From positions 1-20,769 of IMG/VR virus record IMGVR_UViG_3300037507_003673: 20,769 nucleotides of DNA; one strand, given 5' to 3'. Within the stretch, counting starts at the first letter, position 1. The number at the start of each line of letters is the position of its first letter. The translations under genes were made by a program, and so were the position numbers. Source of the DNA: a virus. The notes beneath the pieces were generated by a model. It was given only the letters and a program-made list of their open reading frames with translations, was not told where the DNA came from and did no database searches. Of this stretch, positions 2,318 to 12,508 are shown one piece after another.

Positions 2318-2347
2318 TGCCAAACTATCGGCCAAAGTGCCCAAAGA
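2318..2347 (+). repeat. Tandem 10-bp repeat array A (putative operator next to the HNH promoter)
   Basis: Three 10-bp units begin at 2318, 2328 and 2338, each with a CCAAA-type core (first unit TGCCAAACTA). They resemble, with more divergence, the TGCCAACAGA decamers found at five other places in the window. The array touches the -35 box of the HNH promoter. The sequence starting at 2318 also recurs, 15 of 16 bases identical, at 2483. Confidence 0.5.
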
Positions 2348-2440
2348 CCCGCATGTTTACAGGGCTGGGCAGCTCTTTACAAATCAGGTGCACTACCGCT
2401 GTGCTATGCCGGCGAGATATCAAATTCTTCTGACGGACGG

Positions 2441-2470
2441 TGCTGACAGCGTCCAACAACGTCCAACAAA
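2441..2470 (+). repeat. Tandem 10-bp repeat array B (putative operator upstream of the integrase)
   Basis: Units at 2441, 2451 and 2461 keep an exact 10-bp period; the second and third share GTCCAACAA, and the first (TGCTGACAGC) is almost identical to a unit of the array at 5471-5520. It lies 66 bp before the integrase ATG in a stretch without a gene, so it could control integrase expression. Confidence 0.6.
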
Positions 2471-2482
2471 TACCCATCTTTC

Positions 2483-2534
2483 TGCCAAACTTTCGGCCTC
2501 AATTTTGCCAAACTATTTGACGCGCTGCCAAACT
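2483..2534 (+). repeat. TGCCAAACT direct repeats upstream of the integrase (possible arm-type sites)
   Basis: TGCCAAACT occurs at 2483, 2506 and 2526 and once more at 2318. The copies at 2318 and 2483 extend to TGCCAAACTxTCGGCC. The last copy ends one base before the integrase ATG. Short direct repeats beside an integrase gene are typical of arm-type integrase binding sites in attP. They may alternatively be divergent operator units; no core attachment site could be identified from one window. Confidence 0.5.
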
Positions 2535-2535
2535 C

Positions 2536-3657
2536 ATGCGAAAGCACGGCATGCACGCCATCAAAAGCAGCGGCATCTCCGGCCGTCTTTACACCACAAC
2601 GGCCTCGCCGCGCTGGCAACTCAAGTTCTATCACCCAGGCATCCGCAAGCGGCAGCGCGTCTCGCTCGGCACTGAGAGTCTCGAGCTGGCCAAGGTGAAG
2701 GCCAAGGCGATCCTCGATGACATAGCGACCAAGGGCGTGGCTGCCCTCAAGGACCACGCCATGCGCGCCACGGCGCTCCCGGTTGGCAGGGCTATCGATC
2801 ATTACTTGCAGGTCAGCAAAATCGCCAGCCGCCATGCCAATGTCAACTGCCTCCTCATCGTCCTGCGCACCGCGCTCGGCGGCGACAATGACGCCGTGCG
2901 AGCCAAGCCGCTTTCGGTGATCTCGCCCTCGCTTGTCGCCAAATACAAGGCCAAGTTCCAAGGCAGCGCCTACAGCGTGCGCACCAACCTCGCCTCGGCC
3001 CGCGCCATCTTCGCCCACCCGCTGGACTGGGAGGGCTTTGAGCTGCCGGATTCCATCGCCAAGTTCGCCGCGGCGACCAAGGGCATGAAGGCGCCGGTCT
3101 CGACCTTTATCCGCATCGCGCCGGAAACGCTGGAAAAGATGGACGCCAGCAGCAAGGCTATCGGCGGCGCCACCCGGCGCGCGTATTTACTAACTCGCTA
3201 CCTCGGCATGACACCCAAGGAGGTTGCCTACTGCCGCAAGGGCTGGATCGAAGACCGCGGCGACCGACATGTTATGGTGCTCGTTGAGCGGCCCAGCGAG
3301 GAGCTGACGCTAAAGACCGGCCACAAGCGCGGACGGGTCATGGCGCTGCCGACGTGGATGGTGCCGGAACTGATGGCTGCGGAGGATTTTATGGTGACCG
3401 GGCGCACTGCTGGCACCCGGATGAAATTCATGGAGCGCAACTTCAACCTCTGGGTCCGCGAGTTTCTGCCGGATCGGCGCTCGGCCGCCTACGAACTGCG
3501 CCGCCAGGCCGGCTCCGACATGCTCAACGCCACCGGAAAGATCAGCGTAGTGCAGCACATGCTCGGCCACGCAAGCCCGCAGACAACGGCCAGATTTTAC
3601 GCCGTTTACGACCGCGAGGTGGACGTTGCGTCCGTCTGGGATGTGCCAATAACGTAA
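2536..3657 (+). CDS. int: Tyrosine recombinase / phage integrase with unusual active site
   Basis: A 373-residue protein with the layout of tyrosine integrases. An N-terminal basic arm-binding-type segment (about 1-70) is followed by a SAM-like core-binding domain (about 80-180) and a C-terminal catalytic domain. Recognisable catalytic elements are the beta-hairpin lysine region 'KTGHKRGRVMALP' (260-272), 'YELRR' (319-323, Arg322 the second catalytic Arg), 'MLGH' (His345) and 'TTARFYAVY' with Tyr355 as likely nucleophile. The first catalytic Arg, normally in a G-L/M-R-x-x-E motif, is replaced: the sequence reads G-M-T-P-K-E (224-229), and the HxxR histidine is Tyr319. It would catalyse site-specific integration and, with an excisionase, excision. 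An alternative start ATG lies at 2551. Confidence 0.85.
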   Translation: MRKHGMHAIKSSGISGRLYTTTASPRWQLKFYHPGIRKRQRVSLGTESLELAKVKAKAILDDIATKGVAALKDHAMRATALPVGRAIDHYLQVSKIASRHANVNCLLIVLRTALGGDNDAVRAKPLSVISPSLVAKYKAKFQGSAYSVRTNLASARAIFAHPLDWEGFELPDSIAKFAAATKGMKAPVSTFIRIAPETLEKMDASSKAIGGATRRAYLLTRYLGMTPKEVAYCRKGWIEDRGDRHVMVLVERPSEELTLKTGHKRGRVMALPTWMVPELMAAEDFMVTGRTAGTRMKFMERNFNLWVREFLPDRRSAAYELRRQAGSDMLNATGKISVVQHMLGHASPQTTARFYAVYDREVDVASVWDVPIT

Positions 3658-3678
3658 CTACAACTTTTCCGCTCTTTC

Positions 3679-3687
3679 TGGTATAAT
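3679..3687 (+). promoter_or_regulatory. Extended -10 promoter for the small gene at 3712
   Basis: TGGTATAAT is a perfect extended -10 element (TGn plus TATAAT at 3682-3687). No good -35 is visible, which extended -10 promoters can do without. The predicted start near 3694 leaves an 18-nt leader that holds the Shine-Dalgarno sequence AAAGGAGG at 3697-3704. Confidence 0.75.
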
Positions 3688-3711
3688 AGAAGGCGGAAAG
3701 GAGGTGGCGCG

Positions 3712-3840
3712 ATGCGTTACGACACATCACCCATGGGCATTGTTTACGGCCCTTACGGAGCAGTGGGATTTGTCGGCGGGCAGAGCAACTCGAGCTGGAT
3801 CACGGTCCTGCTCGCGTGGCTAGGTTTGAAGCCGGCGTAG
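3712..3840 (+). CDS. Small 42-residue protein with its own promoter and terminator (moron-like)
   Basis: The gene encodes 42 residues starting MRYDTSPMGIVYGPYG. It has a Gly-rich middle and a short hydrophobic end (SWITVLLAWLGLKPA) that could insert into or lie on a membrane. I do not recognise a family. Expression signals are unusually complete: an extended -10 promoter, the consensus-like AAAGGAGG seven bases before the ATG, and a 12-bp terminator stem six bases after the stop. This isolated cassette between the integrase and a convergent operon matches the 'moron' layout, a gene expressed from the otherwise silent prophage. A role in lysogeny, exclusion or toxicity is only inference. Confidence 0.7.
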   Translation: MRYDTSPMGIVYGPYGAVGFVGGQSNSSWITVLLAWLGLKPA

Positions 3841-3846
3841 TCTCAG

Positions 3847-3878
3847 CGGCCGCAGGCAGAGATGCTTGCGGCCGTTTT
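3847..3878 (+). terminator. Strong Rho-independent terminator
   Basis: CGGCCGCAGGCA (3847-3858) pairs with TGCTTGCGGCCG (3863-3874), 12 bp with one G-T pair, around a GAGA tetraloop. TTTT follows. It ends the 42-residue gene and lies at the end of the convergent leftward operon. Confidence 0.85.
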
Positions 3879-3882
3879 GCGT

Positions 3883-4107
3883 TCAGCAATACGCCGCTTC
3901 CCTGCGGAGAATGTGCTCTTCAATCGCCGCAACTTCCTCGGCGAATGGCAGGACATCAAGGTCCGCGCACGCATGCCGCACGCAGTTGTCGCTCAGGCAC
4001 TGCCGCTTCATCATGGCGAGCAGTTCCGGTGAGTCGAAGCGGCGGCCGGCGAGGCGTAGGCCGGACCATGGGAAGGTGCCGGTGAGTAGGTAGTCGTGGC
4101 GGATCAT
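3883..4107 (-). CDS. Hypothetical protein, last gene of the leftward operon
   Basis: The start ATG at 4107 overlaps the stop of the upstream gene in an ATGA arrangement, giving 74 residues starting MIRHDYLLTGTFPWSGLRLAG. A GTG four codons earlier (4119) is possible but less likely. The C-terminal half is acidic and probably helical (LDVLPFAEEVAAIEEHILRR) and three Cys are present, without a clear metal motif. I do not recognise a family. It is the sixth gene of the operon that starts near 5457, so it is probably expressed with the lipoprotein gene. Confidence 0.6.
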   Translation of the reverse strand: MIRHDYLLTGTFPWSGLRLAGRRFDSPELLAMMKRQCLSDNCVRHACADLDVLPFAEEVAAIEEHILRREAAYC

Positions 4108-4481
4108 TTGAAGCTCCACCCCGTGTTGCTGTTTTCTTCGGACTTGCTGCGCGCTGGTTTTTTCTTTGGGCGGCGGCTGACAGGCTCGCGGATTCCAAGC
4201 AGCTTGCGCTCCTCTGCGGTCAGCTTGGCGGCCACGGCGTTGTAGGCGTCTTCTTCTTGGAAGCGGCGCAAGATGCCCTCGCGGCGCTCACCCCACCAGT
4301 CCTTCATGTGGCTGGCCGTGAAGTTGCGGCTGAAGACTGCGTTGAGGACTTTTTCGTGCGTCAGGTTGGACGCTGCTGCGAGTTGTTTAGAAAGCGCGAT
4401 TAAGGCGGTGCGCTGTGGCGTAATCTTGGCGATGATGGCCTCGATGTCATCAAAGCGCTGCTGTGCTGTTTTGGATTTCAT
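4104..4481 (-). CDS. Hypothetical basic-tailed protein
   Basis: A 125-residue protein starting MKSKTAQQRFDDIEAIIAKI. The N-terminal two thirds look helical, and a central segment (TASHMKDWWGERREGILRRFQEEDAYNAVAAKL) carries a Trp pair. The last 30 residues are Lys/Arg-rich (SRRPKKKPARSK), suggesting nucleic-acid binding or an unfolded tail. The start is preceded by an A/C-rich leader (complement of 4482-4507) with no Shine-Dalgarno sequence. The next gene overlaps by 4 bp. No family is recognised. Confidence 0.65.
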   Translation of the reverse strand: MKSKTAQQRFDDIEAIIAKITPQRTALIALSKQLAAASNLTHEKVLNAVFSRNFTASHMKDWWGERREGILRRFQEEDAYNAVAAKLTAEERKLLGIREPVSRRPKKKPARSKSEENSNTGWSFK

Positions 4482-4514
4482 GTGGTGTGTTTGTGTTTTG
4501 GTTGGGTGAAAGTT

Positions 4515-4892
4515 TCAAGGGTTAACGGCAAGCGGTTGCGGTGGCTTGGGCTGGGTGGCGGAATACCAGTGCGTATACCCAGGGACGCGCAGTAGGACGC
4601 GGGACGGCACTCGGTAGCCGCTTGGGTAGACCATCTCCTCGAAGGCAACGGAGTCATGCGGGACAACGGCGCGGATGATGGAGTCTTGCTTCCATTTGCC
4701 GAACTGATCGGCGACCAGCTTGACCGTGACCGGCGATGTGCCCATGTATTCGGCGTTGAGGTAGACCAAGGCGCCCGGAGGCAGCGTGGCGATCTGCACG
4801 GTGACGACCGGCTCGGCGGTGCGGTAGCGGTCTGGCACCGGATCGGTGGCGCAGCCGGTGAGGAGCACGGCAAGGATGGCGAGCGGTCTCAC
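4515..4892 (-). CDS. PEGA-like domain lipoprotein
   Basis: A 125-residue protein with a short hydrophobic signal sequence and lipobox LTGC (Cys14 is the predicted lipidated residue), so it should be exported and membrane anchored. Residues 35-59, 'ATLPPGALVYLNAEYMGTSPVTVKL', match the PEGA pattern (P-x-G-A-x-V-x-x-N-x-x-x-x-G-x-T/S-P), a beta-sandwich surface domain. The start is GTG at 4892, overlapping the TGA of the upstream small gene (GTGA). In a prophage accessory operon such a lipoprotein may change the host surface, for example in superinfection exclusion; an outer spanin role is less likely because no lysis genes adjoin it. Function is inference; lipoprotein and PEGA-like reading are fairly firm. 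Confidence 0.75.
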   Translation of the reverse strand: MRPLAILAVLLTGCATDPVPDRYRTAEPVVTVQIATLPPGALVYLNAEYMGTSPVTVKLVADQFGKWKQDSIIRAVVPHDSVAFEEMVYPSGYRVPSRVLLRVPGYTHWYSATQPKPPQPLAVNP

Positions 4893-5065
4893 TGGGCGAC
4901 CTCCAAGGGTAGCGAAAGCTGCGGGTCGGCGGCTTCTTTGCGCGCAAGCTGCACCATATGGGCGTGCGTGATGATTAGCTCGGTGAGCTTGAGCGCGGCG
5001 CTGACATCGTAGTCGTGCTGCTCGTTGAATGCGGCGGCAGACTGGGCGATAGCGTGGATGTTCAT
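4889..5065 (-). CDS. Small hypothetical protein upstream of the lipoprotein
   Basis: A 58-residue protein starting MNIHAIAQSAAAFNEQHDYD, almost wholly helical in appearance and mildly acidic. Its ATG at 5065 lies one base after the stop of the preceding gene, and its TGA overlaps the GTG of the lipoprotein gene. This tight packing on both sides is the main evidence that it is real. No family is recognised. Confidence 0.65.
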   Translation of the reverse strand: MNIHAIAQSAAAFNEQHDYDVSAALKLTELIITHAHMVQLARKEAADPQLSLPLEVAQ

Positions 5066-5066
5066 G

Positions 5067-5249
5067 TTAGGCGGTGAGTTTGCGCAAATAGTGTTTTAGG
5101 GCAACCAAGGCGCGTGTTTTGGTTGTGTTGGGAGACACAAACTCGCATGCCAGTTGCTCGTTAACATATGCCCTTCCGTCAGGATAAAGCCGGACGTGCC
5201 AAACATTGCCTTTGTGCGTGAAAACGTGTGTGGCGTATTCGTATTTCAT
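5067..5249 (-). CDS. Small hypothetical protein
   Basis: A 60-residue protein starting MKYEYATHVFTHKGNVWHVRLYPDG. The chosen ATG at 5249 is one base after the stop of the upstream gene and has GGGGG about eight bases before it; a longer version starting at 5393 would be buried inside that upstream gene. Alternating hydrophobic residues in the first 40 positions suggest a small beta-sheet, and a helix ends the protein (TRALVALKHYLRKL). No family is recognised. Confidence 0.65.
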   Translation of the reverse strand: MKYEYATHVFTHKGNVWHVRLYPDGRAYVNEQLACEFVSPNTTKTRALVALKHYLRKLTA

Positions 5250-5250
5250 G

Positions 5251-5457
5251 TCAAAACCCCCAGTCAGTGCCGTGCCAGTTGTCAACGCAAGTGTCCTCGA
5301 CTTCGCCGCGGTAGATGCGTGTTTCGCGGATGTTGTTGCGTGTTTCGCGCTCAAGGCGGGCGGACTCGGCTGCCTCGCGGCGGGCGTTCGCAATGGCGAT
5401 TGCGCGGCGAGTGGATGCCGGCTGGAGCCGGCGCTGTGCTGCGGTGTGTGTTGTCAT
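5251..5457 (-). CDS. Hypothetical helical protein, first gene of the leftward operon
   Basis: A 68-residue, Arg/Ala/Glu-rich protein (MTTHTAAQRRLQPASTRRAI...) that would form a long charged helix (AIANARREAAESARLERETRNN) and ends in DNWHGTDWGF. The ATG at 5457 is preferred to an ATG at 5481 because the predicted transcription start is near 5483 and the 5481 codon lies in the operator repeats. The leader is A/C-rich (CTACACACCAC) without a Shine-Dalgarno sequence. No family is recognised. Confidence 0.55.
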   Translation of the reverse strand: MTTHTAAQRRLQPASTRRAIAIANARREAAESARLERETRNNIRETRIYRGEVEDTCVDNWHGTDWGF

Positions 5458-5470
5458 GTGGTGTGTAGAT

Positions 5471-5520
5471 GCTGTTGGCATCTGTCAGCACTATATGGCA
5501 TCTGTTGGCATCTGCAAGCA
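5471..5520 (-). promoter_or_regulatory. Tandem 10-bp operator array C over the promoter of the leftward operon
   Basis: On the minus strand five consecutive 10-bp units run from 5520 to 5471. The second is exactly TGCCAACAGA, the fifth is TGCCAACAGC, and the others keep TGC plus ACAG or similar. A plausible promoter is embedded in them: TTGCAG (5517-5512), a 16-bp spacer and TATAGT (5495-5490). The one poorly matching unit (TGCCATATAG) is the one containing the -10 box. A bound repressor would cover the promoter. Confidence 0.7.
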
Positions 5521-5570
5521 ATATTTTGAAGATTCTGTAAAATAGTTATTTTTCTCTGTAAATCAGCGAC

Positions 5571-5831
5571 TTACTGGAGGGCTTTTTCCAGCTTGGCCGC
5601 CATCCCGCCGACGTTGCGCAGGATCATGGCCCGGAACTGCTCGGTCATCGGACCGCCGAAGGCGTCCTCGAGGTCCATGTAGAACTCAAGGGCAACGCCG
5701 GCGTATTTCGCTGCGCTGAGGTGCGAGGCCGGAGCGCGGCGCTGCAGCCTAACGTGCGTGTCGTTGCTGATGTTGGCGAAGACTGACCTGCGTGAGCCTA
5801 CAAGTCGGTTTCGTTTTGTGGTGGTGTTCAC
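5571..5831 (-). CDS. Probable ribbon-helix-helix transcriptional repressor
   Basis: An 86-residue protein read from GTG 5831; the start is uncertain because the frame stays open upstream, but upstream codons lie in the operator repeats. Residues 16-52 have the ribbon-helix-helix pattern: a strand (SVFANIS), a helix (NDTHVRLQRRAP), a tight turn and a second helix (LSAAKYAGVALEFYMDL). Such proteins are dimers that insert the paired strands into the major groove, and they often bind tandem repeats cooperatively. The C-terminal helical part (61-86) could mediate oligomers. The gene lies at the divergent switch, with an operator-like array over its 5' end, so autoregulation is likely. It is my candidate for the lysogeny repressor. 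The fold is inferred by eye only. Confidence 0.5.
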   Translation of the reverse strand: MNTTTKRNRLVGSRRSVFANISNDTHVRLQRRAPASHLSAAKYAGVALEFYMDLEDAFGGPMTEQFRAMILRNVGGMAAKLEKALQ

Positions 5832-5880
5832 GCCAACAGCTTCCAACAGACGCCAACAAATGTCAACTGGGGTCAATGCC
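5831..5880 (+). promoter_or_regulatory. Tandem 10-bp operator array D at the divergent switch
   Basis: Units begin at 5831, 5841, 5851, 5861 and 5871. The core CCAACA falls at 5833, 5843 and 5853, with weaker TCAAC and TCAAT at 5863 and 5873, all exactly 10 bp apart. The array overlaps the start of the repressor gene and extends into the 118-bp gap before the rightward genes. Confidence 0.7.
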
Positions 5881-5902
5881 CCAGACTGCCCAGAGATGGG
5901 CA
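5867..5902. repeat. Two adjacent short inverted repeats in the switch region
   Basis: CTGGGG (5867-5872) and CCCCAG (5879-5884) form one inverted repeat with a 6-nt centre. TGCCCA (5887-5892) and TGGGCA (5897-5902) form another with a GAGA centre. They sit between the two oppositely oriented decamer arrays. They could be hairpins or sites for a second, dimeric regulator. Confidence 0.5.
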
Positions 5903-5908
5903 AAAAAT

Positions 5909-5938
5909 AATGCTTGCACCTGTGGGCACTTGTAGGCA
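5909..5938 (-). promoter_or_regulatory. Inverted 10-bp operator array D' before the excisionase-like gene
   Basis: Read on the minus strand, units ending at 5938 and 5928 are TGCCTACAAG and TGCCCACAGG, with a weaker third unit at 5918-5909. The spacing is again 10 bp, but the orientation is opposite to array D. The array ends 11 bp before the ATG at 5950. Confidence 0.55.
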
Positions 5939-5949
5939 TCTTACGCGAA

Positions 5950-6177
5950 ATGCACGCCCACCTCGCCCTCACCGTGAAGCAGACTGCAAGAGCGCTGCAG
6001 GTCGGCGAGCGTCGCGTCCGCGGATGGATCAAGGCTGGCGAGCTGCCGGCGTTCAGCATCGGCCCGCGCGAAGGCACACGCATCTCGCGGTGCGCCATCG
6101 ATAACTTCATCAAGGCGCGGACTTTCAATGTCGTCGATGCACACAGATGCCAACAGACGCGATCAGACTCTCTATGA
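5950..6177 (+). CDS. Excisionase-like helix-turn-helix protein
   Basis: A 75-residue protein whose first 57 residues have the MerR/excisionase (HTH_17) pattern: 'LTVKQTARALQVGERRVRGWIKAGELPAFSIGPREGTRISRCAIDNFI', that is, helix-turn-helix, then a wing with Gly and Arg, then a final helix. Members act as recombination directionality factors or small repressors that bend DNA. It is the first gene of the rightward operon and is divergent from the probable repressor, the position of cro or xis. ATG 5950 is preferred; TTG 5914 would extend into the operator. Its last codons coincide with another decamer array, and its stop overlaps the next start (ATGA). Confidence 0.75.
   Translation: MHAHLALTVKQTARALQVGERRVRGWIKAGELPAFSIGPREGTRISRCAIDNFIKARTFNVVDAHRCQQTRSDSL
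6138..6167 (+). promoter_or_regulatory. Tandem 10-bp repeat array E inside the end of the excisionase-like gene
   Basis: Units at 6138, 6148 and 6158 share the CAGA ending, and the middle one is exactly TGCCAACAGA. The array lies within coding sequence just upstream of the next gene. A 10-bp period cannot arise from a codon repeat, which favours selection at the DNA level. Confidence 0.6.
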
Positions 6178-6311
6178 CACACCACACCACACCAACCCTG
6201 CTCGAAGTCTTGAGCTATCTCACCGACCCGGTCTTCACGACTGTGGCCGTTCTGACAATCGGCACGTTCGCCGCGCTGCAATTCATTAACAAGATCGGAG
6301 GCGCACGATGA
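6174..6311 (+). CDS. Small single-pass membrane protein
   Basis: A 45-residue protein, MTHHTTPTLLEVLSYLTDP then a hydrophobic segment at about 20-40 (VFTTVAVLTIGTFAALQFI) and a short basic tail. It overlaps both neighbours by ATGA junctions, which supports the start and the reality of the gene. A single transmembrane helix with the N-terminus probably outside or in the periplasm is the only thing that can be read. No family is recognised. Confidence 0.65.
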   Translation: MTHHTTPTLLEVLSYLTDPVFTTVAVLTIGTFAALQFINKIGGAR

Positions 6312-6637
6312 TCGACCTCCGCATAGACCAGCCCTACGACGAGGCGGCTCGCTGCGAATGCGGTGACGCTGAATGCCTCGGCTCAGTGGAAGTCGCTGGC
6401 GTCATTGCCGCGAGCATTGCGGAGGCATTGCCCCAGCTCGAATCGCCGATGCTCAAGCTCATCAAGGAGCGCAACGAGGCGCGCCAGATGTGCGAGGTGC
6501 TCGCCGCGGCGATGCCCGACTTGGTTCACGTCACGACCTCGCCCAAGGCAATGGCCGCGGCGTCTGACGAGCTGCACACGGCGCTGATCACCTATGTGAA
6601 GCTGCGGAAGAATTGGGACGAGAGGAGCTGGAAATGA
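6308..6637 (+). CDS. Hypothetical protein
   Basis: A 109-residue protein starting MIDLRIDQPYDEAARCECGDAECLG. The CxCxxxxC cluster near residues 16-23 may bind metal. The remainder looks helical (a predicted helix at LKLIKERNEARQMCEVLAAAM), typical of small early phage proteins. Both ends overlap neighbours by ATGA. No family is recognised. Confidence 0.65.
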   Translation: MIDLRIDQPYDEAARCECGDAECLGSVEVAGVIAASIAEALPQLESPMLKLIKERNEARQMCEVLAAAMPDLVHVTTSPKAMAAASDELHTALITYVKLRKNWDERSWK

Positions 6638-6783
6638 GGAAGCTCACCAAGTCCATGCTGCTCAACCGGCCGGCGACCCGCAAAGACTCCGGCACCAAAG
6701 ACACCGCCTTCTGCGGGCGCCGCAAGGCCAAGCGGGTGCGTGCGCGCAAGGCGCAGCGTCAAGCGAGGAGGGTGCAACGATGA
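6634..6783 (+). CDS. Small very basic protein
   Basis: A 49-residue protein (MRKLTKSMLLNRPATRKDSG...) whose second half is almost all Arg, Lys and Ala (RRKAKRVRARKAQRQARRVQR). It probably binds nucleic acid. ATGA overlaps at both ends support it. Its opening (xxKLTKSML) resembles that of the weaker candidate gene at 9442 (xxKPTKSLM). Confidence 0.55.
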   Translation: MRKLTKSMLLNRPATRKDSGTKDTAFCGRRKAKRVRARKAQRQARRVQR

Positions 6784-6923
6784 GCTACGAACTCGGAGAC
6801 CCGGACGACCGCTGCTGCGATGAGGGCCGCGAGGCCGACATTGAGGAGCGTGACGCGGATGACTGCAGCAAGGCTTACGGCGTGCCGTTTGATCCTTACA
6901 GCGATGAGGAGGGCGAAGAATGA
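6780..6923 (+). CDS. Small very acidic protein
   Basis: A 47-residue protein, MSYELGDPDDRCCDEGREAD and on to a terminal DEEGEE, with three Cys. It is strongly acidic, in contrast to its basic neighbour. Small acidic phage proteins sometimes mimic DNA or inhibit host nucleases, but nothing here proves that. It overlaps both neighbours by ATGA. Confidence 0.55.
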   Translation: MSYELGDPDDRCCDEGREADIEERDADDCSKAYGVPFDPYSDEEGEE

Positions 6924-7198
6924 GCGCCTGGATCTTCGGCGAGGAGCGCATCCCGCAGAACGACCGGCACGTCTTGGTCACCGATGGGCGGCAATGCTTT
7001 GTCGCCTACTTCGAGGATGTCGATTGGGTGGACGCGCAGACGTTCGATCCCTTTGAGACGCGCATCACGCACTGGATGGAACTGCCGGAGTTGCCACGCC
7101 GCGAGCGCACCCCGCAGGAAGAAGCCGAGTGGGCTGCCGATAAGCGCGCGGAATACGAGGCCGACCGCTGCTGCGGACACCACTGGGGCAACTGCTAA
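6920..7198 (+). CDS. DUF551-like phage protein
   Basis: A 92-residue protein with the pattern of the DUF551 family: P-x(n)-VLVT, then 'CFVAYFEDVDW' and 'ITHWMELPELP'. The family is common in phage early regions and has no firmly known function. The C-terminal 35 residues are charged and end with a Cys/His-rich CCGHHWGNC, which could bind a metal. It starts by an ATGA overlap and ends just before the shared ribosome binding site of the methyltransferase and its alternative-frame partner. Confidence 0.75.
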   Translation: MSAWIFGEERIPQNDRHVLVTDGRQCFVAYFEDVDWVDAQTFDPFETRITHWMELPELPRRERTPQEEAEWAADKRAEYEADRCCGHHWGNC

Positions 7199-7209
7199 CG
7201 GAGAGACCG

Positions 7210-8226
7210 ATGTGGATACTACCTCGCCAATTACACACGTCTCCCTTTGTGCCGGATACGGAGGCATTGATCTCGGACTTAAACGAGCAATCCCAAGCCT
7301 GCGCACAATCGCTTTTAGTGAGATCGAAGCCTTCGCCTGCGCGAACTTGGTCTCTAAAATGGAAGCGGGACTCTTGGACCCAGCTCCTATCTGGACGGAT
7401 CTTAAAACCTTCCCATGGGCCGAGTTTCACGGCCGCGTGGACATCCTCAGCGGCGGCTACCCGTGCCAGCCATTCAGTGCCGCCGGCAAGCGCCTCGGCG
7501 CTGAAGACCCACGACACCTCTGGCCGTTTATCGCAGCCGGAATTGCTGCAATGCGACCAAGTGTCTGTTTCTTTGAAAACGTCGAGGGACATATCAGCCT
7601 TGGGCTTCCCGACGTGCTGCAAGACTTGGCAGGAATGGGTTACCGAACGACGTGGTGCGTATTCAGCGCGAGTGAAGTTGGCGCGACGCATCAAAGAAAG
7701 CGCATCTTCATCTTGGCCCACTGTCACAACGCAAGACAGCTACAACACGCCTTGCGCTTCTCAGATGGAGAGGAATACGCCTCCACTGGTAGTTGCGGTG
7801 CATGGCCCGCTCGCCCTGGCGAGCAGCAGTTTGCATGGGAGCCGCCAAGGGTTGTCGTGGGCAACGCCAGCAGCGCGAGACACGCAAGGACAGCGTGGAG
7901 CGGCGGCGAATGCGCGCAAGGGCAATCCATTGGATACGTTGCCGAATCAGATGGCGCAGTGGGGCACGCCAACAGCCCGCGACCACAAGAGCGGCCGAGG
8001 CAACGAGAAACGGGAATACAAGGAGCTGACGCCGATGGTGGAGAGGCAGCAGAGCGGCAAACTCAACCCTCGCTGGGTCGAGACGCTGATGGGTTTGCCC
8101 ATCGGATGGACGATGCCGTCCTGCACGTCTCCACAGACAATCGCACCGATGAGCTGCGACTCCTCGGCAATGGAGTTGTCTCGGCCACCGCAGAGCGAGC
8201 TTTCCGAGTTCTCGTTGGCGAGCTGA
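7210..8226 (+). CDS. Alternative-frame protein fully overlapping the C5 methyltransferase gene
   Basis: A 338-codon frame lies entirely over the methyltransferase gene, shifted by one frame, starting at ATG 7210 with a well-placed GGAGAG. Its product is Ser/Thr/Trp-rich. It has three W-x-T-x-x-x-x-D motifs (SWPTVTTQDS, SWATPAARDT, QWGTPTARDH) and near its end LNPRWVETLMGLPIGWT. The motifs LNP-x-WVE-x-LMG-x-P-x-GWT and W-x-TP-x-x-x-D recur, as I recall, in many phage proteins annotated near methyltransferases, so this frame looks selected rather than accidental. No function is known to me. It could also be a translation by-product of a conserved methyltransferase DNA sequence. Confidence 0.5.
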   Translation: MWILPRQLHTSPFVPDTEALISDLNEQSQACAQSLLVRSKPSPARTWSLKWKRDSWTQLLSGRILKPSHGPSFTAAWTSSAAATRASHSVPPASASALKTHDTSGRLSQPELLQCDQVSVSLKTSRDISALGFPTCCKTWQEWVTERRGAYSARVKLARRIKESASSSWPTVTTQDSYNTPCASQMERNTPPLVVAVHGPLALASSSLHGSRQGLSWATPAARDTQGQRGAAANARKGNPLDTLPNQMAQWGTPTARDHKSGRGNEKREYKELTPMVERQQSGKLNPRWVETLMGLPIGWTMPSCTSPQTIAPMSCDSSAMELSRPPQSELSEFSLAS

Positions 8227-8243
8227 TGGAGGAAGCACCATGA
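7212..8243 (+). CDS. C5 cytosine-specific DNA methyltransferase
   Basis: A 343-residue protein with the ordered motifs of C5 methyltransferases. Motif I is SLCAGYGGIDLGL (11-23, S-adenosylmethionine binding). Motif IV is GGYPCQPFSAAGKR (81-94, catalytic Cys85). Motif VI is FENV (121-124) and motif VIII is QRKRIFI (161-167). The C-terminal motif is LRLLGNGVV (315-323). The 170-300 stretch would be the target recognition region; the recognised sequence cannot be predicted. It would methylate cytosine in phage DNA and protect it from host restriction; no partner restriction enzyme is visible. The start is taken as GTG 7212, two bases inside an ATG that opens a second long frame, with GGAGAG at 7200-7205 serving either. 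The gene ends with an ATGA overlap. Confidence 0.85.
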   Translation: MDTTSPITHVSLCAGYGGIDLGLKRAIPSLRTIAFSEIEAFACANLVSKMEAGLLDPAPIWTDLKTFPWAEFHGRVDILSGGYPCQPFSAAGKRLGAEDPRHLWPFIAAGIAAMRPSVCFFENVEGHISLGLPDVLQDLAGMGYRTTWCVFSASEVGATHQRKRIFILAHCHNARQLQHALRFSDGEEYASTGSCGAWPARPGEQQFAWEPPRVVVGNASSARHARTAWSGGECAQGQSIGYVAESDGAVGHANSPRPQERPRQRETGIQGADADGGEAAERQTQPSLGRDADGFAHRMDDAVLHVSTDNRTDELRLLGNGVVSATAERAFRVLVGELMEEAP

Positions 8244-8395
8244 CCGCCCACGACATCGACTTGGTCACCCAATGGCTTGCCGCGCGGGACAACGAGAAGA
8301 CCGGCGCCAAGGTGTATCACGGCGAGCGGCCGTGTTTGCCGGCGGCTGCCATGTTGGCGGTGGCTGAGAGGATCTGGAGGAAGCGCTCAAGGTGA
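8240..8395 (+). CDS. Small hypothetical protein
   Basis: A 51-residue protein, MTAHDIDLVTQWLAARDNEK..., with two probable helices and a basic end (IWRKRSR). It overlaps the methyltransferase stop by ATGA and its own TGA overlaps the next ATG (TGATG). No family is recognised. Confidence 0.55.
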   Translation: MTAHDIDLVTQWLAARDNEKTGAKVYHGERPCLPAAAMLAVAERIWRKRSR

Positions 8396-8574
8396 TGACC
8401 TTTAAGCAGTGGCGAGCGTGCGGACGTAAGCGGCGCTTTCACACCGCGGCAGAGGCGCGTCGTTGTCAGCCGATGATGACTGTCTACGAGTGCAAGTATT
8501 GCGGCCGCTACCACCTGACCAAGGGAATCGACTGGTGGGCCAAGCACATCCTGCAGCGGAGGTTGGCGGCTTGA
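8395..8574 (+). CDS. Small zinc-ribbon-like protein
   Basis: A 59-residue basic protein (MTFKQWRACGRKRRFHTAAEARRC... in part) with 'YECKYCGRYHLTK': Cys33, Cys36 and His40 probably bind zinc with an upstream Cys or His. Such small phage zinc proteins are frequent near replication genes, and DNA or RNA binding is likely. ATG 8395 in a TGATG junction is preferred to GTG 8392. Confidence 0.65.
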   Translation: MTFKQWRACGRKRRFHTAAEARRCQPMMTVYECKYCGRYHLTKGIDWWAKHILQRRLAA

Positions 8575-8846
8575 GGACGGCGCCTCTCCTCTGCGCTTGG
8601 CCGGTCGCCCACAATGAGTGGCGCATCCAGTCGCGCATCGGTGCGGCGTCCAAATACCTGCGCTCCGGGCTGAAGCTGACCCGCTGCGCCTGGGCAATTT
8701 GTGGCGGGCATCTGGTCATCTTCAAGGTCATCGGCGGCAAGGCTGACGCTCAGAGGGTGATGGCGAATGTGACCCGCTATCTAAGGGAGAATTTTACAGA
8801 GAGGGCAATTCACGAAATGCCCCGCAGAGGCACTTTGATTTCATGA
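8571..8846 (+). CDS. Hypothetical protein
   Basis: A 91-residue protein with a TTG start in a TTGA overlap with the previous stop. The frame is open further upstream but there it would overlap the zinc-ribbon gene. It is basic, with a hydrophobic patch (CAWAICGGHLVIFKVIGG) between helical segments. It ends by an ATGA overlap. No family is recognised. Confidence 0.55.
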   Translation: MRTAPLLCAWPVAHNEWRIQSRIGAASKYLRSGLKLTRCAWAICGGHLVIFKVIGGKADAQRVMANVTRYLRENFTERAIHEMPRRGTLIS

Positions 8847-9445
8847 CCATGGCAAGACCGCGGACGACATCTAAACCCAAAAAGAAAGCAGCCAAGCCGG
8901 AGCCAGAGATTGCTCCGGTGCATGTGGGCCGCTCAACCGGCCTCGAGGTGCCCGAAGCGAAGGCTGAGAAGATCGCCGCAGCGCATATGGCCGGCATGTC
9001 GATCCGTGAGATGTGCCGCGCGTTCAACACGTCGTACCACACGATCATGGCGCTGATACGAAACAGGCCGGAGCTGTTGGAACGCGCGCGGGAAATTACG
9101 TCGAAGAACTGGAAGACCTTGGCCGCCGTTGGGACCGCGGAACTCTTTGAGAGGATACCCGACATGAAGAGTCACGAACTCACTATCATGTCTGCGGTTG
9201 CAACAGAGAAATCTGAACTGCTGGCCGGTGGCGCAACGCAGCGTGTGGAGCATGTGATGGCTCCGGCGGCTGACTCTTGGAATAGCTTCGTGCGCGGGCT
9301 GAGGAGCGAGCAGGTGATCGATGTGACGGCGGAACGGGTGGATTTACCGGTCGGCTCAGAAGGACGCGAGGCGCAAAAGGCCGCTGCACTGCCGGCTGCT
9401 GCTATTGAGATTGAGACTGGCTCTACAGAGGAAAGCGAGAGATGA
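8843..9445 (+). CDS. HTH DNA-binding protein (possible small terminase or regulator)
   Basis: A 200-residue protein with a basic Pro/Lys-rich N-terminus (1-25) and a homeodomain-like helix-turn-helix at about 40-75 (KAEKIAAAHMAGMSIREMCRAFNTSYHTIMALIRNRPE cut here to its core, GMSIREMCRAFNTSYHTI). A helical region with 'ATEKSELLAGGATQRVEHV' follows. This arrangement of HTH, helical middle and variable tail is found in small terminase subunits and in phage regulators. It lies some 8 kb from the large terminase gene, so a regulatory or replication role is equally possible. ATGA overlaps link it on both sides. Confidence 0.6.
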   Translation: MTMARPRTTSKPKKKAAKPEPEIAPVHVGRSTGLEVPEAKAEKIAAAHMAGMSIREMCRAFNTSYHTIMALIRNRPELLERAREITSKNWKTLAAVGTAELFERIPDMKSHELTIMSAVATEKSELLAGGATQRVEHVMAPAADSWNSFVRGLRSEQVIDVTAERVDLPVGSEGREAQKAAALPAAAIEIETGSTEESER

Positions 9446-9597
9446 GCCGCAAACCGACCAAGTCGTTAATGCGACAACAGAGTAGAGCTGCTGCACATGA
9501 GAGTTATTGGATTGAGTTATGCAGGGGTGGAGGGGGTCTGTCGTTATCATTTTCTCTAATACCCCCGACCGCTTGGACCTCCCGAAATTTTTTATAA
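9442..9597 (+). CDS. Doubtful small gene in a structured region
   Basis: An ATG overlapping the previous stop (ATGA) opens 51 codons, MSRKPTKSLMRQQSRAAAHES and on. The junction type and an opening similar to the basic gene at 6634 are in favour. The second half coincides with G-run and C-run repeats and a T tract that look non-coding, so the frame may be decayed or accidental. Confidence 0.3.
   Translation: MSRKPTKSLMRQQSRAAAHESYWIELCRGGGGLSLSFSLIPPTAWTSRNFL
9529..9593 (+). terminator. Possible attenuator or terminator structure
   Basis: GGGGGT (9532-9537) can pair with ACCCCC (9561-9566), and GGAGG (9529-9533) alternatively with CCTCC (9578-9582). ATTTTTTAT follows at 9586-9594. Two mutually exclusive pairings before a T tract suggest an attenuator, but loops are long and stability cannot be judged by eye. 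Confidence 0.3.
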
Positions 9598-9606
9598 AAA
9601 CACTTT

Positions 9607-10056
9607 ATGATCAAGCACATCCTATCCGCCGCCAAGTCAACCCTCAGCCAACCCATTAGTCAACCCGCCGCGGAACCCGCCAAGCCAATCCCCTCGCCTG
9701 CCGCAGAACCAGTCCCGGCGCCCAAGCCGGAAGCCATCCTCAAGTCCACCCCAAAGACCGCCAAAGAACTGGCCGTTGAAACCGCCGCCCAGATCGGCTA
9801 CAGCGCGGGCGATGTGGTCACCGCGGTGATCTGCCGCCATCAGCGCGCCCGTCACCCGCGCATGCTCTTCGTTGAGGTGCCCGACTGGTCGGAGCCGGTG
9901 GTGTGCTATGTGAAGGATGCCGCGAGCTGGCAGCCGGTCAATCCGCCCTACGACCGCATCAAGGCGCGCTGGTCAGGGATGGCAGACGTGGAAGGCCGGC
10001 TGATCTTTGAGAGCAGCGACGAGTGCAAGAAGAGCCGACTGATCCGCCGGAAATGA
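9607..10056 (+). CDS. Hypothetical protein with Pro/Ala-rich linker
   Basis: A 149-residue protein. After a short basic start (MIKHILSAAKSTL) comes a Pro/Ala/Glu-rich unfolded linker (about 15-50). The rest is a compact C-terminal domain of about 95 residues with alternating strands (DVVTAVICRHQ, RMLFVEVPDW, EPVVCYVKDA). The start has an A/T-rich leader (AACACTTT) and no Shine-Dalgarno sequence. It is translationally coupled (ATGA) to the replication initiator. No family is recognised; the context suggests replication. Confidence 0.65.
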   Translation: MIKHILSAAKSTLSQPISQPAAEPAKPIPSPAAEPVPAPKPEAILKSTPKTAKELAVETAAQIGYSAGDVVTAVICRHQRARHPRMLFVEVPDWSEPVVCYVKDAASWQPVNPPYDRIKARWSGMADVEGRLIFESSDECKKSRLIRRK

Positions 10057-10826
10057 GCGTAGCCGCCACCAACTACGTCTGGACGAAGTCGCCCGCGGAA
10101 GGAGCCGACCGGCTTGTCCTTTTGGCCTTGGCAGACTTCGCCGATGAGATGGGCAACTGCTTCGGTTCCTGGGGCAAGCTGTGCGAGAAGACACGGCTGG
10201 CTCGGGCCACGGTTGCTCGTTGTCTTCGCCGCCTGCAGAAGGCTGGCCAACTGGTGATGGTTGAGAAGGGCCACCGGAAGATCGCCGGCAACGGCTCGGA
10301 GGCCAGCATTTGGATCATTCCGGGTGTGTCCGAGGAGATGGGTCTCACGATGAGACCGGTCTCAGAAAGAGACCCAAGTAGTGTCAGAATGAGACCCAAG
10401 TGGTGTCAGGATGAGACCCCAACTATAAGTAACATAAGGAACGCTGACAGTGCGGTCGCTCCGGCTGCTTCGCAGCCTTCGCTCCCTTCATCTTCCGCTC
10501 CCCTTAATTCCGCCCCCAAAAAACGCAAACCCCGCAAAGCGGCGCCGCACCCTACCCTGCGCCCCGACTTGGACGACCAGTCTTGGTTTCGCCACCTTTC
10601 CGAGCTTCCCGAGTTCGCCCACGCCAAGATCGCCGAGGAATACGGCCGCTGTCGGACGTGGTGCCGCAACAAGGGTGTCGGCGCGGTCAGCCGCCGCCGG
10701 TTCATCAATTGGCTGTCCAAGGTCGAGGCGCCGCTCACCGAGCCGACCCCGCAGGTGGTCCGCCGGTCGGCTGCCGATGACTACTATGCGCGCATCGAGG
10801 CGCGCGTGGGAGGGATCAAAGCGTGA
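10053..10826 (+). CDS. Replication initiator, lambda O-like (winged helix), with iterons in its gene
   Basis: A 257-residue protein. Residues 7-75 have the winged-helix pattern of phage O-type initiators: 'VWTKSPAEGADRLVLLALADFA', then 'SWGKLCEKTRLARATVARCLRRLQKAGQL'. A low-complexity linker (about 100-165, Ser/Pro/Ala) separates it from a C-terminal domain of about 90 residues rich in Arg and Trp (YGRCRTWCRNKGVG). In lambda, O binds iterons inside its own gene, exactly in such a linker, and recruits the helicase. Here 22-bp repeats lie at the same relative place. A DnaB-type helicase is encoded downstream. ATG 10053 overlaps the previous stop, and the end overlaps the next start (GTGA). Confidence 0.7.
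   Translation: MSVAATNYVWTKSPAEGADRLVLLALADFADEMGNCFGSWGKLCEKTRLARATVARCLRRLQKAGQLVMVEKGHRKIAGNGSEASIWIIPGVSEEMGLTMRPVSERDPSSVRMRPKWCQDETPTISNIRNADSAVAPAASQPSLPSSSAPLNSAPKKRKPRKAAPHPTLRPDLDDQSWFRHLSELPEFAHAKIAEEYGRCRTWCRNKGVGAVSRRRFINWLSKVEAPLTEPTPQVVRRSAADDYYARIEARVGGIKA
10341..10440. other. Putative phage replication origin (iterons plus A/T-rich stretch)
   Basis: GAGACC or its complement GGTCTC occurs at 10341, 10352, 10358, 10369, 10391 and 10413. The boxes at 10352 and 10358 join into the 12-bp palindrome GAGACCGGTCTC. The units 10369-10390 and 10391-10412 are 22 bp long, two helical turns, and differ at only two positions; a third begins at 10413. An A/T-rich stretch (10420-10440, AACTATAAGTAACATAAGG) follows. 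Because 22 is not a multiple of three, the copies are translated in different frames, so the repeat is conserved as DNA, not as protein. Confidence 0.65.
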
Positions 10827-11323
10827 GCACCCTCTTCGCCCTCGAAAACGGCATCCACGCCCCGATCACCGGCGGTGCCGTGCTCTCGGCCTGCCGCAAG
10901 GGAGAGTTGTCCGAATCGCTTTTCATTGTCGGCGCCCAAGCCTGCAACTGGGAAATCTTCACGCCCTTCGGTCACGCCCAGACGACCGACGTGATGCTCA
11001 CCCGCTCCGGCGTTCGCCCTATCGGCGTCCAAGTTAAGACCGCCACCCTAGACCGCGGCGCCTACCACGTCTCCGTCAAGCGCGCCACCGGCGGACGCAA
11101 TGCGCGCCCCTATCAAGTCCACGACTTTGACGTTCTGGCCGCCTACCTGCCCGACCTCAACCAATTCGTTTTCTGGACATTTGACGACATCAGCAACCGC
11201 GTCAGCGTCCGCTACGACCCCAACAAGCACCGGAGACCCGGTAACTGGGAACTGCTCAACGATGTCGCGGAATCGCTAACAAATTCTGGGTCTGGGACAG
11301 CCGTTGTCCCACCCCATCCTTGA
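10823..11323 (+). CDS. PD-(D/E)XK nuclease-like protein
   Basis: A 166-residue protein with the pattern of the PDDEXK_5-like group. 'KGELSESLFIVGAQACNWEIFTPFG' (Glu28, Glu31) is followed by 'TTDVML' (Asp56) and 'IGVQVKTATLDRG' (Gln70, Lys72), the D...(E/Q)xK core of restriction-like endonucleases. A conserved-looking 'YQVHDFDVLAAYLPDLNQFVFW' follows. Gln instead of Glu in the QxK motif is common in this group. The GTG start overlaps the initiator stop. A role in DNA cleavage or branch processing during replication is likely but not shown. Confidence 0.7.
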   Translation: MSTLFALENGIHAPITGGAVLSACRKGELSESLFIVGAQACNWEIFTPFGHAQTTDVMLTRSGVRPIGVQVKTATLDRGAYHVSVKRATGGRNARPYQVHDFDVLAAYLPDLNQFVFWTFDDISNRVSVRYDPNKHRRPGNWELLNDVAESLTNSGSGTAVVPPHP

Positions 11324-11339
11324 TACTCCGTAGATATTT

Positions 11340-11516
11340 ATGAAAACCGCCAAAGGCACCAAGAAAAAGGCGAGCGCCCCCAAGGCGCCGAAAACCGTCT
11401 ACAACATCAACGTCGAATACGTCGAAGCCATCGCCGACGAAAGCATCGCCACCATCATGGCTTTGCGCGCCCTCGTCCGCCAACTCGCCACCGAGCTGCA
11501 GGAGGCCCGCAAATGA
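11340..11516 (+). CDS. Small hypothetical protein with basic N-terminus
   Basis: A 58-residue protein: a Lys/Ala/Pro-rich start (MKTAKGTKKKASAPKAPK) and a helical rest (IADESIATIMALRALVRQLATELQEARK). The start follows an A/T-rich leader (TAGATATTT) with no Shine-Dalgarno sequence, 16 bp after the previous gene. It is coupled to the next gene by ATGA. No family is recognised. Confidence 0.6.
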   Translation: MKTAKGTKKKASAPKAPKTVYNINVEYVEAIADESIATIMALRALVRQLATELQEARK

Positions 11517-11707
11517 AGTTCAAAAACGGCTGCATCACCGAGGTGGAGCGCGGCGTGCCCGGACTGCCGCAGATCAACCACATGCTCATGCAGAAGGCGT
11601 GCGACAGATTCCTTGCCAAGCGCGGACTGTACAACCCCGGGTTCCGCCGCTCGGAATGGCTCTTCGGCCGCATGGCAATCGGACAACAACGGAGGGCCGC
11701 AGCGTGA
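11513..11707 (+). CDS. Small hypothetical basic protein
   Basis: A 64-residue protein, MKFKNGCITEVERGVPGLPQ and on, with a helical middle and several aromatic and Arg residues (YNPGFRRSEWLFGRMAIG). ATGA and GTGA overlaps on both sides support it. No family is recognised. Confidence 0.6.
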   Translation: MKFKNGCITEVERGVPGLPQINHMLMQKACDRFLAKRGLYNPGFRRSEWLFGRMAIGQQRRAAA

Positions 11708-11964
11708 GCACGATGATGTGCCCCGACCTGGTTGTTGGCGAGGTCGGCTTCGGCAACAACTTTGGCGCCTCTGCGGAGCTGGAGTTTATGCGCAACGAAG
11801 ACCGCCGCCACACCGCCGAAATCGCCGATCTTCAGCGCGAGAACCGTGAGCTGATTCGGCGCGTCAATCGGCTCAAGCGCGTCCTTGAGCGGTGCGCTGC
11901 GCTGTCCGAGGAAGTCTCCAACGAAAAGCACGAGGCGCTGCTTGAGATTGCCCAGCCGCTATGA
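11704..11964 (+). CDS. Coiled-coil hypothetical protein
   Basis: An 86-residue protein with a GTG start in a GTGA overlap. Residues from about 28 to 80 are charged with hydrophobic residues at heptad spacing (EIADLQRENRELIRRVNRL), a likely coiled coil and dimer. The first 25 residues are hydrophobic and Gly-rich. No family is recognised. Confidence 0.6.
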   Translation: MSTMMCPDLVVGEVGFGNNFGASAELEFMRNEDRRHTAEIADLQRENRELIRRVNRLKRVLERCAALSEEVSNEKHEALLEIAQPL

Positions 11965-12170
11965 GCCTGCGCTACGAGCAATACTGGGCGCTTCGCCGCA
12001 CCCGCCAGTTCTTAGCCGACCTGCTGCACCCCAGCACGCGGCCCAAGACGGTCAAGGAGCTGCGCGGGCGCGCGTCCGCCTGCCTGCGGCACTTCCCGTT
12101 CCTCGAGGGGTCCGGCAAGCCGATCTTCTCGCAAGACGAGTTTGCCTCACCGGAGGGCCACGAACTATGA
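11961..12170 (+). CDS. Small hypothetical basic protein
   Basis: A 69-residue basic protein, MSLRYEQYWALRRTRQFLAD and on, with two probable helices and an unfolded, more acidic end. It resembles the many small uncharacterised early phage proteins that lie before the KGDxPRPV-type gene. ATGA overlaps on both sides support the start. No family is recognised. Confidence 0.6.
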   Translation: MSLRYEQYWALRRTRQFLADLLHPSTRPKTVKELRGRASACLRHFPFLEGSGKPIFSQDEFASPEGHEL

Positions 12171-12472
12171 GCGCCGGCAAAGGCGACAGCCCACGGCCGG
12201 TCGATGGCGACCGCTACCGGCGCAACTACGAGGCGATCTTCCCCAAAGAAGACTTGCTGTCCGACATTCTCACCAAGGTCCGCGACCAGTTCCCGTATCC
12301 CGCCTGGATATGCCGCCCGTGCGGCGAGGCTTACGGCCGCGGCATGCCCGCCGGCCACGTCTCGACCTGGCACGAAGACACCTGCGGCATCTGCGGCAAG
12401 GTCACTTCCGTCAGCGAGCCGCGCGATTTTGGCCACCTAAAAAAATGGCCCATCCTCCCAAAAAACCCTTGA
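12167..12472 (+). CDS. KGDxPRPV-type phage zinc-binding protein
   Basis: A 101-residue protein that opens with KGDSPRPVDGDRYRRNYEAIF, a motif I know from many small phage proteins of unknown function. A metal site follows: Cys49-x2-Cys52, His64, His69 and Cys73-x2-Cys76 (ICRPCG... and TCGICG). It ends the coupled gene chain that begins at 5950. The 66-bp gap after it carries a decamer array. Confidence 0.7.
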   Translation: MSAGKGDSPRPVDGDRYRRNYEAIFPKEDLLSDILTKVRDQFPYPAWICRPCGEAYGRGMPAGHVSTWHEDTCGICGKVTSVSEPRDFGHLKKWPILPKNP

Positions 12473-12478
12473 TTCCCA

Positions 12479-12508
12479 TGCCAACATTTGCCAACATATG
12501 CCTACAGA
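12479..12508 (+). promoter_or_regulatory. Tandem 10-bp operator array F before the helicase operon
   Basis: Units at 12479, 12489 and 12499 are TGCCAACATT, then a copy differing at the last base, then TGCCTACAGA, in perfect 10-bp register. The array fills most of the only sizeable gap between the early gene chain and the helicase block. No clear -10 or -35 was found, so the promoter itself is not located. Confidence 0.65.

Follow-up and report, generated by a model that had tools for sequence, protein, structure and literature searches.

Tandem one-turn decamers in an uncultured temperate phage: probable operators of a candidate ribbon-helix-helix repressor and a separate array at attP

The virus record IMGVR_UViG_3300037507_003673 (IMG/VR), all 20,769 bases of which were analysed and are called the window here, represents a temperate, uncultured phage with relatives that carry one-turn, 10-letter repeats at the promoters of their main gene blocks; it is classed as linear and, as such records often are, may be a fragment. 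Arrays of these decamers occur at five places in the window, beyond chance, and a weaker one lies at the phage attachment site (attP). The period is exactly 10 bp, the arrays are conserved and keep their placement in relatives, and their letters change with the class of the small protein encoded at 5571-5831 (the five arrays) or with the type of the helix-turn-helix (HTH) protein of family HTH_17 encoded beside it (the attP array). The best joint explanation, which we regard as probable from the comparison of sequences, is that the five arrays are operators of a ribbon-helix-helix (RHH) master repressor and that the attP array is read by the HTH_17 protein acting as an excisionase. The arrays are:

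5471 to 5520, minus strand: candidate operators covering the promoter of the leftward operon (best three in-register units, 29.8 bits; 32.4 in the leave-window-out scan described below)
5831 to 5870, plus strand: candidate operator array over the repressor's own promoter, with the units CGCCAACAGC TTCCAACAGA CGCCAACAAA TGTCAACTGG (32.8 bits for the best three units; 32.6 leave-window-out)
5909 to 5938, minus strand: candidate operator array over the putative HTH_17 promoter (24.5 bits in both scorings)
6138 to 6167, plus strand: array inside the HTH_17 gene at its 3' end, ahead of the rightward gene that follows (27.7 bits; 30.3 leave-window-out)
12479 to 12508, plus strand: candidate operator array before the DnaB-helicase operon (35.2 bits, outside the training region)
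2441 to 2470, plus strand: attP array between the att core and the integrase arm-like repeats, proposed excisionase array (15.6 bits; 14.3 leave-window-out)

The leave-window-out matrix was trained on the relatives minus the window and seeded with the consensus string of an earlier reading of this DNA (the original prediction). It found exactly six places at 8 bits or more in the window, five at 24.5-34.3 bits and 2441-2470 at 14.3 bits. On 200 shuffles it gave no match at 20 bits or more (top score 18.8), and matches at 14 bits or more averaged 0.065 with a maximum of 2. Three-unit runs matching TGCCAACAGA in at least 21 of 30 letters numbered five in the window, whereas 200 dinucleotide shuffles averaged 0.02 and never exceeded 1; none of 300 letter-permuted consensus strings reached five such runs (maximum 4). 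Runs of three units were found at period 10 only, with none at periods 7, 8, 9, 11, 12 and 13, and two-unit runs at 15 of 20 letters include one at period 13. The array at 2441-2470 is weak by score alone, so that its support comes from conservation in relatives that share the integrase and the HTH_17 type.

The original prediction had listed seven arrays, the best of them with three to five units, mostly in gaps between genes. Five stand where it had placed them and 2441-2470 is weak and conserved, whereas 2318-2347 drops out; the run at 5831-5880 is shortened to 5831-5870, as its final unit (5871-5880) fails at -3.8 bits, and 6138-6167 sits not in a gap but within the 3' end of a gene. The broader idea is supported, in that the arrays look like operators close to promoters, with units one helix turn apart, that together form a regulon. 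Neither of the two checks that had been proposed to refute it did so: phased arrays are almost absent from shuffled sequence, in the 200 shuffles as in the held-out scan below, and are present at the same gene gaps in related phages.

These relatives were collected in two sets, one of 36 loci from HTH_17 and integrase scans and one from an alignment scan that listed 57 contigs with a relative of the 5571-5831 product (P0001); L026, a wrong-frame read, was left out. P0001 and P0002 had no match among 50,697 phage records, and scans of genome contigs, run with the integrase and with the alignment of RHH proteins, left no relative confirmed. In the first set 24 of 36 loci carry TGCCAACAGA arrays: all 24 loci with a repressor homologue of at least 65% identity and none of the nine with a homologue at 39-56%, the remaining three being fragments with neither a repressor homologue nor a TGCCAACAGA array. 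At the same spots the nine loci have 10-bp arrays with other letters. By the strand motif of the repressor we distinguish three RHH classes, F (VFAN/VYAN), H (VHAN) and T ([VA]T[VI][ST]L), whose unit consensus is TGCCAACAGA in F, TGTCC(A/C)CA(A/T)G in H and (T/C/A)GTCCGCAAA in T. Upstream of the RHH gene the fraction of matches at lag 10 is raised in each class, at 0.395 vs 0.247 in class F (standard deviation 0.011, 12 non-redundant sequences), 0.364 vs 0.249 in class H (0.018, n=4) and 0.345 vs 0.258 in class T (0.014, n=6).

The training region of the class matrices was limited to -450 to +203 around the repressor gene, and they were then run on the rest of 55 loci (L061, L069 and L090, unclassed or short, were left out). 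Across 852 kb this held-out scan gave 48 arrays that reached at least 20 bits, where 0.4 were expected, and one of the 48 overlaps a homologous coding match. By manual count, 29 precede the DnaB operon, ten precede an integrase and nine are leftward; the last nine are all of class T and lie 0.7-2.2 kb past the repressor gene, where the next gene has no homologue in the window. In the 400 nucleotides upstream of DnaB (40 loci, the window included) the own-class matrix reached at least 13.8 bits in 40 of 40 loci and at least 20 bits in 23 of 23 loci of class F, one of four of class H and five of 13 of class T. Even at the lower scores upstream of DnaB few matches are expected by chance: the F matrix gives 0.13 matches at 12 bits per 20.8 kb in shuffles of the window. 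The letters of the arrays upstream of DnaB differ by class, for example TGCCAACATT TGCCAACATA in F, TGTCCATGAC TGTCCCATAG in H, and TGTCCGCATT TGTCCACACT in T.

That the arrays arose by chance, or as a by-product of codon or composition bias, has a practically negligible probability. Two of the seven arrays first listed are indeed weak or absent, as this would have it; against it, shuffles, permuted consensus strings and other periods yield almost no arrays, and the arrays are conserved and change together across relatives.

The operators may be read by either of two proteins encoded back to back:

5571 to 5831, minus strand: gene of the RHH-type repressor (P0001, 86 amino acids), proposed operator reader from its homologues and from operator letters by class
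5950 to 6177, plus strand: HTH_17 (MerR/excisionase-like) gene, 75 amino acids, proposed recombination directionality factor (RDF; PF12728, 9.8e-10)

The HTH_17 proteins fall into two types, A and B, with 35% identity over 52 amino acids, and the gene divergent from the repressor is HTH_17-like wherever one was detected. A comparison of HTH_17 type and RHH class, with 55 of 58 loci scored (L052, L061 and L090 being too short upstream), has shown that RHH class F goes with unit F both beside HTH A (11/11) and beside HTH B (22/22). Beside HTH A, unit H accompanies RHH class H (5/5) and unit T accompanies RHH class T (15/15), and one class T locus without a detected HTH gene has unit T as well (1/1). 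The reciprocal case, in which HTH B is paired with a T-like RHH protein (L097/L036), has TGTCCATA units before DnaB (TGTCCATGTT TGTCCATAAA TGTCCATACC in L097, which the T matrix scores at 15.0 bits) and also past the repressor gene (TTGTCCATAT ATGCATACTA TTGTCCATAC in L097), together with a B-type attP array. Because the letters of the unit change with the RHH class and not with the HTH_17 type, the operators appear to be read by the RHH protein rather than by HTH_17; this suggests the 5571-5831 product as the best candidate reader, in line with the original prediction, which had proposed assaying it on the arrays. The part of this comparison free of circularity is that class F loci score alike with HTH A or B and that the HTH-A loci of classes H and T go unscored by the F matrix. 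On the RHH tree the HTH type changes at least four times, and in both well-supported swap pairs the attP array goes with the HTH protein while the operator array is unchanged.

At attP the pattern is the opposite. Among contigs with 150 nucleotides upstream of the integrase start, the F array is present at 10 of 10 HTH-A/RHH-F loci (14.7-33.5 bits) and at none of 17 HTH-B/RHH-F loci (at most 7.2 bits); most of these 17 have instead a TTGATCTGGT-like array, likewise phased at 10 bp, the B-unit matrix having been trained on those same HTH-B loci. In three HTH-B loci (L046, L050 and L051) the B matrix scores highest inside the upstream gene instead of next to the att core; a second match is found at the expected att place in L050 and L051 and not in L046. 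HTH-A/RHH-T loci have the T array at attP in 12 of 12 cases at 12.8 bits or more. At a threshold of 20 bits, the HTH-A counts are 6/10 for F and 4/12 for T. For the attP arrays of all five HTH-A/RHH-H loci, the H operator matrix is a poor fit, with scores of -7.2 to 9.3 bits. The B unit partly resembles F: the F unit is TTGGCATCTG on its opposite strand, and one variant of the B unit is TTGCATCTGG. Direct repeats one turn apart are thus found at attP with a unit that tracks the HTH_17 type, which is a correlation only. We consider it most likely that the attP array is read by the HTH_17 protein and not by the repressor, so that the array that the original prediction had placed before the integrase is there at 2441-2470 and its role as a repressor site is not upheld, since its unit tracks the HTH_17 type.

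The 5950-6177 product matches phrog_66 ('excisionase and transcriptional regulator', 2.7e-7) and phrog_2907 (excisionase), and by Pfam and PHROGs together it is a small HTH protein of the excisionase family. That the attP array follows the HTH_17 type (10/10 vs 0/17) makes an excisionase, that is, an RDF, its most likely function. In the A-type gene, the array at 6138-6167 is coding sequence for the C-terminus; B-type phages have an array directly before the HTH_B start, as if HTH modules had been swapped at the arrays.

Our initial idea had been that HTH_17 reads all arrays, and it was dropped since HTH-B phages keep F operators. In this alternative the protein would act in the manner of 186 Apl or P2 Cox, as head-to-tail monomers at attP and at the switch promoters, leaving the RHH protein another job. 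The excisionase matches fit it, as does the match between attP and operator units in the HTH-A phages of classes F and T at the scores given above, and the cited part of PMC7498355 describes RDFs of the 186 Apl, P2 Cox and lambda Xis kind as binding one-turn direct repeats at att, and Apl as binding between early promoters too. We nevertheless judge it improbable: F operators are kept in all 22 HTH-B/RHH-F loci, all 17 attP sites of this combination lack the F array, five B-matrix matches outside attP fall at no known operator and are chance-like, and the operators are TGTCCATA where HTH B pairs with the T-like RHH protein. The phage thus resembles the Apl/Cox/Xis systems in the HTH_17/excisionase matches and in the one-turn repeats at attP, and differs from them in that its operators outside attP follow the RHH protein.

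An extension compatible with an RHH reader of the operators is that in HTH-A phages both proteins read the operator decamers, in a contest like that of CI and Cro, and that in HTH-B phages the RHH protein alone does so. It can be advanced tentatively: attP and operator units coincide in the HTH-A classes F and T and differ together between them, and against it stands the poor fit of class H at attP. If it holds, the RHH repressor and the MerR-like excisionase, of unrelated folds, would perhaps have converged on one 10-bp phased repeat in the HTH-A phages, the window included, although we lean somewhat against this. The shared unit differs in step between classes F and T, fits poorly in class H and is broken where the excisionase is of type B. 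Lysogeny control and excision could then conceivably share, or compete for, the same tandem operators, which we think rather less likely than their being separate.

P0001 is placed among the RHH proteins through its homologues, and the structural matches of a homologue's model are weak. Its homologue in L082 passes the cut-off of Pfam HicB, an RHH family (5.7e-5, 23.4 bits, cut-off 21), that in L096 lies just below it (20.6 bits, 4.1e-4), and four of 20 homologues have a weak match to FitA-like RHH; P0001 joins the family through these homologues, by alignment. In the model of a homologue, helices at 22-30, 32-35, 39-56 and 63-86 follow an unformed strand region and are placed as in RHH proteins; the RHH strand is unformed in the monomer models. 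The best Foldseek rows for this model are mostly RHH proteins, namely Rv0298, FitA, VapB, CopG, NikA and Arc (weak, E at least 0.44), and a second structure search has the RHH proteins PutA and AmrZ among the neighbours (weak, VIA Z at most 4.1). The varying strand residues of the repressor are presumably its DNA-contacting positions, going by an alignment on CopG made by eye. A search of PDB with the P0001 alignment returned a tRNA synthetase at E 1.3, which was rejected as a chance match.

Several points weigh against the reading of the five arrays as RHH operators. P0001 itself has no match in Pfam and none in a PDB sequence search, and its own model is poor (pLDDT, the predicted local distance difference test, 61). 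The class matrices were trained within RHH classes, which makes the scores of a class near its own RHH gene circular in part, and the H matrix rests on 22 units. The loci are related and many contigs are near-copies, so that the 48 arrays of the held-out scan are not that many independent cases. The RHH tree is weak, with eight of 26 inner branches well supported, and the independent HTH swaps number two on supported branches (three on all), too few for a sign test. In L097 the repressor promoter has no array by any class matrix; in class H downstream of the RHH gene, lag 11 nearly equals lag 10 (0.330, 0.338); and no sigma-70 pair passes a promoter scanner.

Because no such pair passed, the promoters are called putative here. 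The element beside the repressor array is:

5861 to 5866, minus strand: putative -35 (TTGACA) of the repressor promoter

Of 15 aligned relatives, 13 share this TTGACA column for column and two have it shifted. The repressor start codon, GTG at 5831 in the window and ATG in close relatives, lies about 36 nucleotides downstream of the putative -35, a distance that suggests a leaderless-looking mRNA. Before 18 of 27 DnaB arrays (L057 and L078 left out) there is a TTGA within 16 nucleotides, and a degenerate unit of the leftward array, TGCCATATAG, holds a TATAGT-like putative -10. The arrays run from the putative -35 into the start region, and the layout of the 5471-5520 array recurs in relatives.

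In the mechanism that we propose, each 10-bp unit would take up roughly one RHH dimer, and neighbouring dimers would line up along a single helix face in the manner of ParR on parC. Such rows would cover the putative -35 and -10 elements of four transcription units (repressor, HTH_17, leftward operon and DnaB operon) and would shut these promoters by occlusion in the lysogen, with autoregulation. The separate 10-bp array at attP would be read by HTH_17 acting as the RDF. Protein-DNA binding, its stoichiometry and cooperativity, repression and excision are inferred.

In class H (L075-L079) the TGTCC unit at the repressor promoter stands in the sense of the repressor gene and the F and T units are on the opposite strand at a similar phase, though an RHH dimer is two-fold symmetric. 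Directly upstream of the putative repressor -35 there is a dyad, CTGGGGTCAATGCCCCAG, at 5867-5884; by manual count, 12 of 15 aligned relatives retain both its arms (GGG..CCC), and it is a possible site for a further regulator. The sequences after the leftward operator-promoter (5251-5481; L040-L097) vary widely and the array-promoter is kept, as in a cargo slot.

The window carries a tyrosine integrase, the two divergently oriented genes for small DNA-binding proteins, an O-like replication protein, DnaB, a RusA-like resolvase, a single-stranded-DNA-binding protein, an exonuclease and a terminase, as found by Pfam and PHROGs scans. Features of the integration region are:

2318 to 2337, plus strand: attP arm-like repeat TGCCAAACTATCGGCCAAAG, mis-read as a decamer array (0.2 bits)
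2376 to 2415, minus strand: attP core, the 5' half of a tRNA-like sequence (tRNA-Thr-like by eye), from sequence reading
2536 to 3657, plus strand: tyrosine integrase (PF00589, 2.1e-6)

No intact tRNA was found in the window, and related integrases have other tRNA-like halves at the spot of the attP core, as judged by eye. The array that the original prediction had assigned to an HNH promoter (2318-2347) was dropped as an operator: it scores 0.2 bits, with the middle unit at -13.6, and belongs to the arm-like repeat. The string TGCCAAAC, contained in TGCCAAACTATCGGCCAAAG, recurs across the tRNA-like core at 2483-2490, 2506-2513 and 2526-2533, just before the integrase, and similar repeats adjoin the integrase in relatives. 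Because these repeats flank the tRNA-like core in the layout of arm sites, they are putative arm-type integrase sites of attP. In the segment 6984-8243, the frame containing PCQPFSAAGKR differs from that of the open reading frame (ORF) 7210-8226; we take PCQPFSAAGKR to be a motif of C5-cytosine methyltransferases. The first match listed for the window's DnaB is Akkermansia phage Chambord (36%), which is only a hint at a Verrucomicrobiota host.

Among known systems, the cited parts of PMC5016525 and PMC9426499 describe ParR of pB171 and R1 as a small RHH protein whose binding site is a row of 10- or 11-bp direct repeats at the promoter of its operon, with higher-order assembly and autoregulation, and that partitions by means of such repeats; in the part of PMC9426499 cited here, the letters of the repeats differ between ParR families and members did not bind non-cognate parC. 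The phage is alike in having a small RHH-type protein and tandem direct repeats of about one turn at its own promoter, and differs in that its arrays stand at several separate promoters of a phage that integrates, where the predicted role is repression and not partition. It is very unlikely that the arrays are replication iterons or a centromere-like partition site. Tandem direct repeats near DnaB do look like iterons, and ParR provides the precedent for partition; however, the arrays have few units each, are dispersed over at least five places and stand at gene starts, which argues against both roles, and the phage has an integrase and a tRNA-type attP. A ParM/ParA-like match, too, was lacking among the window proteins scanned against Pfam and PHROGs, with short ORFs partly scanned and the record perhaps a fragment.

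As far as the cited parts of PMC5569661 and PMC9608457 go, the RHH protein F55 of SSV1 maintains lysogeny by binding tandem repeats that lie in its own promoter and in several early ones. The phage has the same layout of tandem repeats at several promoters, where repression would follow by analogy; it differs in that F55 has an 11-nucleotide ATAGATAGAGT motif in an archaeal fusellovirus and the phage record has a terminase and a DnaB-type replication block. BldC, according to the cited part of PMC5859096, is a small MerR-like domain that binds variable numbers of direct repeats of about 9 bp head to tail. It is a possible model for the HTH_17 product, although it is a cellular Streptomyces regulator with an AATTXXXX(C) unit. 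In lambda-type phages with CI and Cro, an HTH repressor gene stands beside a divergent early gene and paired dyad operators lie at both. The phage shares the repressor and divergent gene with operators at both, as well as the leaderless-looking repressor mRNA; it differs in having tandem one-turn units and no paired dyads, and in a repressor of RHH type rather than HTH. Among the papers listed by searches of open-access literature there was no bacteriophage RHH master repressor with one-turn tandem operators, which is no proof of absence. By analogy, the system probably works like ParR on 10-bp repeats and like SSV1 F55, with an Apl-like excisionase alongside.

If this is true, a family of uncultured temperate phages runs the choice between lysis and lysogeny by ParR-like tandem one-turn operators and not by paired dyads. 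The reader protein, the letters of its operators and the excisionase partner would all vary naturally and so form a ready set of swaps, which would help to explain decamer recognition by an RHH strand and the route by which a repressor and an excisionase come to share one repeat. The most interesting possibility is that the A-type HTH_17 protein also binds the operators, given that its attP unit is similar to that of the operators in classes F and T.

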